A stretch of 64,000 bases of DNA from Stutzerimonas stutzeri (GTDB taxonomy: Bacteria > Pseudomonadota > Gammaproteobacteria > Pseudomonadales > Pseudomonadaceae), in the NCBI RefSeq assembly GCF_002909485.1, contig NZ_PPXG01000001.1:310001-374000 (forward strand). Direction: 5' to 3'. Of the stretch, positions 31,860-34,210 are shown piece after piece. Below the pieces are notes generated by a model, which was not told where the DNA came from, ran no database searches, and saw only the letters and a program-made list of their open reading frames with translations. Each line of letters opens with the position of its first letter. The stretch's first letter is position 1. A program made the position numbers and the translations under genes.

Positions 31860-32618
31860 TCAGCCGCCAAACGCCTCGCGGAGCAATTCGGGTAGTGCCT
31901 TGCCAGCGGGCAGGGCGAGCAGATGTTCGCGGTTGTCTGCAGTCGGTTCGCCGTGCGGATTGATATGCACCACGGTGGCTCCGGCGTCACGCGCCCGATG
32001 CGGCACCTCTGCAGCGGGGTACACCACGCCGGAGGTGCCGACCGACAGCAACAGGTCGCATTCGCCAGCCGCCTGGAACGCGGCATTGAGTGCAGCGATG
32101 GGCAGACTCTCGCCGAACCAGACGACGCCGGGCCGCAGCCGTCCGCCGCAGTGGCTGCAACGGGGTGGCTCGAGGCGACGACCGCCTTCGGGCTCGTCGG
32201 CATCTGGCAGTGGCTCGGCTGGCTCACGGGCGCAGGCGAAGCAGCGCGGCTGATGCAGGCTGCCATGCAGGTGGATCACGTTCTGGCTACCGGCACGTTC
32301 GTGCAGGTCATCGACGTTCTGCGTGATCAGCGTTAGTTGCGGTACATGGTGCGCCAGTTCGGCGATGGCCAGGTGAGCAGGGTTCGGCTGGGACTGCAGC
32401 ACGCGCATGCGCCGCCATTCGTACCACCCCCATACCATTGGCGGATCACGGCGGAAGGCCTCGGGCGTGGCCAGCTCGCTGGGATCGAAGCGCTCCCATA
32501 AACCGGTCAGCGCATCGCGGAAGGTCGGAATGCCGCTTTCGGCGGAAACGCCGGCGCCGGTGAATACGACTACGTGGCGCGCCGCGCGCAGGGCGCAAAT
32601 CAGGGAAGCAGGAATCAC
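31860..32618 (-). CDS. NAD-dependent protein deacylase, sirtuin family (CobB-like)
   Basis: This 252-residue sirtuin removes acyl groups from lysine using NAD. The NAD site GAGVSAESGIPTFRD (residues 21-35), QNVDDLHERAG, the catalytic histidine in HLHGSL and zinc cysteines in two CxxC pairs (RCFAC and RCSHC) are all present. Tyr66 and Arg69 form the YxxR motif that lets CobB and SIRT5 accept succinyl or malonyl groups, so desuccinylation is likely as well as deacetylation. It is 237 bases upstream of the nirB promoter region on the same strand and diverges from the HemN-like gene; no operon partner is seen. Confidence 0.93.
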   Translation of the reverse strand: MIPASLICALRAARHVVVFTGAGVSAESGIPTFRDALTGLWERFDPSELATPEAFRRDPPMVWGWYEWRRMRVLQSQPNPAHLAIAELAHHVPQLTLITQNVDDLHERAGSQNVIHLHGSLHQPRCFACAREPAEPLPDADEPEGGRRLEPPRCSHCGGRLRPGVVWFGESLPIAALNAAFQAAGECDLLLSVGTSGVVYPAAEVPHRARDAGATVVHINPHGEPTADNREHLLALPAGKALPELLREAFGG

Positions 32619-32786: not shown

Positions 32787-32827
32787 TTGACGGACGTCAA
32801 CGTCATCGGCAGTGGCTCGCGGATGAT
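32787..32827 (+). promoter_or_regulatory. FNR/Anr/Dnr-type promoter of the HemN-like gene
   Basis: TTGAC-GGAC-GTCAA (32787-32800) is a perfect dyad close to the FNR/Anr/Dnr consensus TTGAT-N4-ATCAA. A GATGAT hexamer at 32822-32827 lies where a -10 element should be if the dyad is centred at -41.5, which is the standard activating geometry. The predicted start is near 32835, leaving a 38-base leader before the ATG at 32873. This suggests induction at low oxygen or by NO. Confidence 0.6.
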
Positions 32828-32872
32828 GCCCCGTACAGCAATAGAAGCGATATTCGATGCCGGGAGGCGCTT

Positions 32873-34210
32873 ATGCTTGGCTCAGTGGACTGGGACGACA
32901 GCCTGGTACAACGCTACGGACAAGTCGGGCAACTGCATTGCAGCTATCCGACCGCGGTTGATTTCAGCGACCGTATCGCACCACTGGACTTGCTGCGTGC
33001 GCTACGTGAAAGCCGCCGGGCGGGGCGCTCGCTTTCCATCGCGATCCACCAGCCAGACGGCGCGGAATTGAAGCCCGGCGAAGCAACAGCCTATCAGTTG
33101 CGCTTGGAACGCGAGATCGAACAGCTCGGTTGTCATGTTGGGCCAATGCAGCAAGTCGAGCAGCTGCGGCTGAGCGCCGGCACTCTGGGTATAGAGGCGC
33201 TGCGGAGGTTGGTAACGCTGCTCAAGACGCGGTTCAGTTTTGCCGATCCTTGCGCAGGCAGTTTTACTGCCGAGGTAGAACTCGCTCACGTCGACTGGCC
33301 CCTGATTGGCGCCCTGCATGAGCTTGGCTTCAATCAGCTCAGCGTCGCCGTGCCGGATTTGCGAGCCGATGATGGCGCAACGGTGGAGTATTTCCGCAGC
33401 TCGGCGCGCATCCGTGCGGTGATCGAGGCAGCGCACGCATTGCACTACCGCTCGGTAAACCTTGATCTCGGCTATGGCAGGTCATGGCAGACGCCTGCGA
33501 GCTTTGCACGCAAGCTTGCCTCGATCATCGAATTGGCGCCCGATCAGGTCACGATGTTCGACTACCGCGACGTCACATCAGGGGCCTCGCCAGGTGGTGC
33601 ACGGCTCGGTCTGGCCTCGGTTGCCGACACACTGGCGATGTACCGGCATGGAGTCGAGCAGCTGAACGCGGCCGGCTATCGCTATATCGGATTAGGCAAG
33701 TTCGTCCTGCCGCACGATGACCTGGCCATGGCACAGGAAATAGGCGCGCTGCATCACGATGTCCTCGGCTACACGCCGCATGGTGACTGCGATCATCTGG
33801 GGTTGGGCGTCGGCGCCATCAGCCGGATCGGTGGATTGTTCTGCCAGAACGCCAGCACCGTCCAGACCTATCAGCAGGCACTCGATCAGGGCCAGTTACC
33901 CAGCAGCTGCGGCCTGCACGCGAGCCACGTCGACCCGCTGCATAGCAGGCTGATCGAGCGCTTGCTCTGCACCTTCGAACTGGACTTCGATGCGCTCAGC
34001 CTGCAAAGCGGTGTGGACGTGCGGCAGCATTACGCCCAGCACTGGGCAACGCTAAGGCAGTTGCACATCGACGGTGTAATCGTGCTGGGAGAAAACGGGT
34101 TGGCAATTCCTCCGCAAGCGCGGCTGCTGGTTGCCGCGGTGTGTGAGGCGTTCAACCGGCCCAGTGCTATGGCGACTGGCAATTCAGTAGGCCACGGCTG
34201 GCTTCGCTGA
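32873..34210 (+). CDS. HemN-like protein lacking the radical-SAM cysteines
   Basis: This 445-residue protein is homologous along its length to oxygen-independent coproporphyrinogen III oxidase HemN (about 457 residues). It starts with WDDSLVQRYGQVG...SYPTA, has YRSVNLDLGYGR and GYTPHGDCDHLGLGVGAISRIGG, and ends with the HemN C-terminal domain. But where HemN has HIPFC-x3-C-x2-C, this protein reads HQPDG and continues AELKPGEAT. Gly63 replaces the first cysteine and the other two are also missing. It cannot hold the usual [4Fe-4S] cluster, so normal HemN chemistry is excluded. It may bind haem or porphyrin. ATG 32873 has GGGAGG at 32862-32867. An FNR-type promoter lies upstream. Confidence 0.88.
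   Translation: MLGSVDWDDSLVQRYGQVGQLHCSYPTAVDFSDRIAPLDLLRALRESRRAGRSLSIAIHQPDGAELKPGEATAYQLRLEREIEQLGCHVGPMQQVEQLRLSAGTLGIEALRRLVTLLKTRFSFADPCAGSFTAEVELAHVDWPLIGALHELGFNQLSVAVPDLRADDGATVEYFRSSARIRAVIEAAHALHYRSVNLDLGYGRSWQTPASFARKLASIIELAPDQVTMFDYRDVTSGASPGGARLGLASVADTLAMYRHGVEQLNAAGYRYIGLGKFVLPHDDLAMAQEIGALHHDVLGYTPHGDCDHLGLGVGAISRIGGLFCQNASTVQTYQQALDQGQLPSSCGLHASHVDPLHSRLIERLLCTFELDFDALSLQSGVDVRQHYAQHWATLRQLHIDGVIVLGENGLAIPPQARLLVAAVCEAFNRPSAMATGNSVGHGWLR

Follow-up and report, generated by a model that had tools for sequence, protein, structure and literature searches.

HemN is a textbook radical-SAM enzyme. Its family also includes proteins that lack coproporphyrinogen dehydrogenase activity, namely HemW and C. 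jejuni CgdH2, according to excerpts of two reports (PMC10320005, PMC11834973). In Pseudomonas, hemN belongs to the core targets of Anr, as stated in the consulted part of another report (PMC6588701). HemN relatives without iron are a known kind, since NCBIfam names a HemN-related non-iron pseudo-SAM protein, PsgB (TIGR04419).

We analysed a 64-kb stretch of Stutzerimonas stutzeri DNA, hereafter the window, that encodes a cluster-less paralogue of HemN, which we labelled psN. Going by the title of the PsgB model, psN is similar to PsgB in being HemN-related and without iron. However, it does not match TIGR04419 at E ≤10, whereas the HemN1, HemN2 and HemW proteins of the same genome match it weakly. 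HemW and CgdH2 are haem chaperones that keep the cluster motif, in the excerpts cited above, unlike psN; the latter also scores only 32.1 bits against the HemW model (TIGR00539; cut-off 205.4) and has no HNxxYW motif. With HemN (TIGR00538; 1olt), psN shares near-full-length homology, the predicted fold, the HemN_C domain and an FNR/ANR-type box, but it has neither CxxxCxxC nor GGG, its SAM-site residues are replaced, and it scores 217 bits where the cut-off is 325. A PHROGs search with psN gave no match. In a full-text literature search judged by titles and the starts of abstracts, we recognised no paper on the psN family, its adjacency to hemN or its box, which does not prove absence from print.

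A HemN homologue devoid of the radical-SAM motifs

The gene and the parts of its product that matter for the comparison with HemN are as follows.

32873..34210, + strand: psN, cluster-less HemN paralogue, 445 aa, from ATG 32873 to the stop at 34210
32862..32867, + strand: ribosome-binding site GGGAGG, read in the sequence
33041..33070, + strand: remnant of the radical-SAM loop, A-I-H-Q-P-D-G-A-E-L, with ~12 residues deleted
33173..33184, + strand: degenerate GGGT motif, S-A-G-T, identified by alignment, including 1olt
33464..33490, + strand: psN signature D-L-G-Y-G-R-S-W-Q (D-L-I-Y-G-L-P-x-Q in HemN)
33926..34129, + strand: HemN_C domain PF06969 (Pfam, E 6.3e-8)

The 445-codon frame has no internal stops, and the ribosome-binding site ends 5 nt before the ATG, in agreement with an earlier note on this DNA that described an intact frame preceded by such a site. 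That note set the start of the feature at 32787; this is the first base of the promoter box described below, and the gene itself starts at ATG 32873. Its main observation, a HemN homologue without the radical-SAM cysteines, is borne out: HQPDG replaces HIPFC, and the CxxxCxxC motif is gone.

The alignment of psN with E. coli HemN (1olt) spans residues 4-428 (7.9e-54). In this alignment, S-A replaces G111-G112 of 1olt. Among the residues that we take to contact SAM, Q172 is replaced by P161, R184 by Y173, I211 by G200, F310 by V and Q311 by L, and E145 and D209 are retained. The hemN model TIGR00538 gives psN 217.4 bits, below its curated cut-off of 324.95. Pfam reports no radical-SAM domain (PF04055) in psN, HemN_C being the sole match at E ≤0.001. 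The AlphaFold model of psN (pLDDT 85.2, pTM 0.86) superimposes on 1olt with a Z score of 41.0 and an rmsd of 2.4 over 411 residues, although eight of the 58 rows in the input alignment were Cys-bearing HemN proteins, which may have biased the model towards HemN. The Foldseek matches ranked under 1olt appear to be generic barrels. No HemN chemistry is expected of psN, because the catalytic set is gone. We give even odds to the proposal that psN is a pseudoenzyme that would have lost the [4Fe-4S]/SAM machinery while keeping the HemN fold, the latter as predicted.

The genome of the window has four HemN-family places: two proteins above the hemN cut-off, psN and one HemW. Its HemN2 (L002, G000:C10:162968-164329) retains CxxxCxxC but has CHYCVRNRVITK; the fourth Cys and the CNK of the other aligned HemN proteins are missing.

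Distribution and conservation of the Cys-less form

Orthologues of psN are present in 27 of 56 genomes of the genus, window included, with 53-100% identity and open frames. A scan of ~85,000 species yielded 95 relatives, 80 of which were kept and form the basis of our counts; they are titled Pseudomonas, Stutzerimonas or, once each, Pseudomonadaceae bacterium and Pseudomonadales bacterium. The two sets overlap: each of the 18 named loci of the Stutzerimonas type has a psN core that also occurs, unchanged, in the genus set. The earlier note had proposed a comparison of homologues and held that cysteine-bearing orthologues would speak against its reading. The comparison revealed the opposite: CxxxCxxC is absent and the signature D[LI]G[YF]G[RH].WQ present in 27/27 genus orthologues and in 79/80 kept relatives, the sole Cys-bearing one (L144) being a HemN2. 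The recurrence of the missing motif, the open frame and the box in relatives excludes chance, and the loss of the cysteines is not recent.

A profile trained on the genus and run on 398 genomes of the family found these 27 orthologues, set apart by a wide gap (1e-203 to 1e-141). Second copies in Pseudomonas (g15), chosen for a late match start, were Cys-less in 5/5 cases read. Variants of the signature occur in G242 and G271 (GS.W), whose psN proteins are full-length, and in G300 (GN.W). A corrected search for the exact signature in 194 genomes of the order gave one match, the window's own genome. As evidence against psN outside the family this is weak, because the search demanded the exact signature and the draw is not known to include another carrier.

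A few copies are damaged. The frame of L128 has an apparent frameshift. In G250 (L153) and G300 (L152), psN ends early, ~75 residues short at the C-terminus, and stops ~20 nt before an intact hemN gene. These three cases speak against the explanation favoured below.

Origin and evolutionary constraint

We built a tree of 58 proteins, comprising 41 psN hand-picked from the 80 relatives, 9 HemN1, 7 HemN2 and one HemW. The 41 psN rows form one clade (support 100/100) that divides into two branches, one of Stutzerimonas type (100/100) and one of Pseudomonas type (96/92). HemN1 proteins are separate (99/99), and the HemN2 proteins are not resolved. Residues R48, H88, W142, W391 and C424 are common to psN and 6 or 7 of the 7 HemN2, and C87 to 4 of the 7, unlike most HemN1. 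Because these residues are shared with HemN2, an origin from the latter is likely, and psN probably split from a HemN2 paralogue.

Residue conservation was determined for 79 psN proteins (78 relatives and the window, L128 being dropped) in comparison with 53 HemN. G200, W205, K214 and G275 are fixed in 79/79 and P161 in 78/79 psN; all differ from HemN, with the exception of a G at position 275 in one of seven HemN2. The dN/dS values of the window against eight relatives are 0.08-0.16, rough figures as dS exceeds 1 in seven of the comparisons. In nine hand-picked Pseudomonas pairs, they are 0.046-0.222 for psN and 0.035-0.111 for HemN1 of the same locus. The psN value is the higher one in 7/9 pairs, which we count against the explanation favoured below. 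By these estimates, psN is under purifying constraint, mostly less than HemN1.

Promoter and gene neighbourhood

Three elements lie upstream of the gene.

32787..32800, + strand: FNR/ANR/DNR-type box TTGAC-GGAC-GTCAA, 10/10 match
32822..32827, + strand: weak -10-like hexamer GATGAT, 4/6, with a spacing that fits a class II FNR promoter
31860..32618, - strand: divergent Sir2-family gene

The box, TTGACGGACGTCAA at 32787, is the sole 10/10 match to TTGAYN4RTCAA within the 64 kb. By the presence of this predicted upstream site (TTGAY-N4-RTCAA), psN would qualify as a member of the ANR/DNR regulon. The hexamer at 32822-32827 obeys what we take to be the spacing rule for class II FNR promoters. Thus, of the dyad with a well-placed -10 element reported in the earlier note, the perfect box and the position stand, but the hexamer itself is weak. 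When a minimum of nine matches to the ten specified bases was demanded between ~350 nt upstream and 60 nt past the match start, a box was found in 79/79 relatives, perfect in 78 and 9/10 in L086. In comparison, among 1400 stretches of 410 nt drawn at random from these loci, 129 had a box, perfect in 53. This supports the proposed FNR-type promoter site. In the window's genome, HemN2 has a perfect box, and HemN1 has none within 400 nt.

Of the 61 Pseudomonas-type loci, 45 have a Cys-bearing hemN gene next to psN and in the same orientation, downstream in 43 and upstream in two. In 18 of the 43 downstream cases it overlaps psN by 14-17 nt, and in 25 it lies at +2 to +24 nt, distances that depend on our choice of start codons. 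No own box was found for hemN in any of these 43 pairs. This adjacency strengthens the idea, raised in the earlier note, that psN might regulate HemN, although hemN is adjacent in none of the 19 Stutzerimonas-type loci (window included). The latter fact counts against the explanation that we favour.

Using tblastn on ~7-kb flanks, some of them shorter at contig ends, we detected denitrification or NO-stress genes near psN in 56 of the 61 Pseudomonas-type loci: nosR (26), nosZ (25), NorR (14), RIC/YtfE (12), nirJ (11), NirN-like (9), NorB-like (9) and NnrS (8). In the five loci without such a neighbour (L095, L098, L137, L138 and L142), hemN adjoins psN. The queries were named by models, save for two whose names are our assumption: NirN-like (cytochrome D1 and cytochrome c domains) and NorB-like, for which Pfam gives COX1 alone and which NCBIfam does not call NorB. 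The 19 Stutzerimonas-type flanks harbour the Sir2-family gene (19), nirB (15) and a cytochrome c gene (5).

The Sir2-family neighbour is divergent in some Stutzerimonas-type loci and co-directional in others. A gene for a 147-aa protein with a hydrophobic N-terminus is present on the strand of psN in 54/61 Pseudomonas-type loci (e.g. L090:3747-4190), usually shortly upstream, with a median start 560 nt before the match; the protein has no Pfam or NCBIfam match.

Association with denitrification genes across genomes

We determined co-occurrences in 80 genomes of Pseudomonas (g15), which were selected by the order of their handles and not at random; G267, which has no profile match, was left out. 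psN is present in 17 of them, 15 times full-length and twice truncated, each confirmed by sequence. Genomes were deemed psN-negative by score, except G268 and G243, whose single matches are Cys-bearing HemN2. The tests below ignore kinship. With NosZ, called above the cut-off of TIGR04244, 11 genomes have both, six psN only (G233, G242, G262, G271, G281 and G300), one NosZ only (G243) and 62 neither (Fisher, 1e-8). The NorB-like protein gives the same picture: 16 genomes have both, one psN only (G281, which has no NosZ either), two NorB-like only (G268 and G243) and 61 neither (9e-14). The six psN carriers without NosZ, and G281 in particular, weigh against the explanation favoured below. For HemN1, called at E ≤1e-155, the numbers are 15 both, two psN only, none HemN1 only and 63 neither (2e-14). 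The two exceptions at this threshold, G242 and G271, have a full-length psN, which counts against the favoured explanation. In G307, HemN1 is encoded some 42 kb away from psN.

In the genus of the window, psN is found in none of the six genomes without a NorB-like match and in 27 of the 50 with one (p 0.024, kinship ignored); one genome, G019 (73% complete), has a weaker NorB-like match only. HemN1, assigned there by identity, is present in 27/27 psN-positive vs 23/29 psN-negative genomes (p 0.024, kinship ignored). The corresponding numbers for NosZ are 25/27 and 22/29, a difference that is not significant (p 0.15). As psN is absent from 23/50 NorB-like-positive and 22/47 NosZ-positive genomes of the genus, it is not needed for denitrification as such, another point against the favoured explanation. 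Two genomes, G026 and G042, have no HemN match to psN at 1e-5, no NorB-like gene and no NosZ.

Possible functions of psN

Sequence comparisons show that psN is conserved, has a single origin among the tested copies, is preceded by an FNR-type box, adjoins hemN in Pseudomonas and is associated with denitrification genes. We favour the explanation, to which we assign a probability of about one half, that psN is a non-catalytic helper or partner of HemN and of anaerobic haem supply under denitrification, because the catalytic set is gone while the box stays and so, in Pseudomonas, does the proximity to hemN and to denitrification genes. Its history probably began when the gene for a HemN2-type coproporphyrinogen III dehydrogenase was duplicated in the lineage leading to Pseudomonas and Stutzerimonas. 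One of the two copies would have dropped the [4Fe-4S]/SAM machinery, retained the HemN fold and fixed P161, G200, W205, K214 and G275. Regulators of the ANR/DNR type would induce psN under low oxygen in the presence of N-oxides. The protein would do no chemistry of its own; as a partner, scaffold or porphyrinogen handler, it would associate physically with HemN, the catalytic protein, or with its pathway. In this way it would raise or protect the supply of haem that the haem-rich enzymes of denitrification need, and NO may be what it protects against. A docking role is conceivable, since P. aeruginosa HemN has been found attached to a denitrification supercomplex, according to the part of the report consulted (PMC5658584).

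In a more specific and less likely version, psN would be a dedicated pseudo-subunit of HemN. HemN1 and psN would together form a two-protein coproporphyrinogen III dehydrogenase serving denitrification, with psN binding porphyrinogen or shielding the cluster of HemN, which would let haem synthesis go on in the presence of nitric oxide.

It is possible, though we consider it rather unlikely, that psN instead serves as a chaperone for haem or porphyrin, akin to the carrier suggested in the earlier note, which would hold haem in the barrel of the former active site and pass it to denitrification cytochromes. Haem binders do exist in the HemN family, as C. jejuni CgdH2 is described in the excerpt of PMC10320005 as binding haem and taking it from ferrochelatase. 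Candidate ligands in psN are H308 (73/79) and H139 (70/79), both enriched in psN and absent from the compared HemN, and also C87/H88; five of the 19 Stutzerimonas-type loci have a cytochrome c gene in the vicinity of psN. However, H308 and H139 are not invariant, C87/H88 are mostly common to HemN2, and the HemW motif HNxxYW occurs in 0/79 psN. Moreover, the HemW of the window's genome and, per the same excerpt, CgdH2 (PMC10320005) retain the cluster motif. Finally, psN adjoins hemN, and no ferrochelatase or cytochrome assembly genes were seen among the 40 most frequent clusters of the ~7-kb flanks.

A new, non-radical activity acquired by the barrel is improbable. In its favour, K214 and W205 are fixed and D198 is kept, each in 79/79 psN, but we recognised no known active-site set, and the haem and denitrification context is the only hint of a substrate. 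Still less probable is a passenger role, in which operon structure would account for the retention of psN, e.g. if it merely coupled the translation of hemN. The overlapping genes in 18 of 43 psN-hemN pairs and the two genomes with a truncated psN next to an intact hemN would fit such a role. Nevertheless, in the window and the 18 named loci of the Stutzerimonas type, psN has its own box, no adjacent hemN and a dN/dS of 0.08-0.16, and the family has private invariant residues. Lastly, a recent HemN pseudogene, which the lost catalytic residues and the two truncated and one apparently frameshifted relatives might have suggested, is refuted by the spread in the genus, the Cys-less relatives, the single clade and the dN/dS values, and the open frames of the other relatives read, the purifying selection and the conserved box make it very hard to sustain. 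The earlier note's view that the gene is maintained, not decaying, is thus upheld by its presence in 27/56 genus genomes, one Cys-less clade among 41 tested copies and dN/dS values of 0.05-0.22.

Annotation based on similarity may label psN-type genes as hemN, which calls for caution. The interest of psN lies in its being kept through Pseudomonas and Stutzerimonas, in its operon-like order with HemN and in its ties to denitrification genes. It offers a starting point for asking how anaerobic haem synthesis is sustained under NO.
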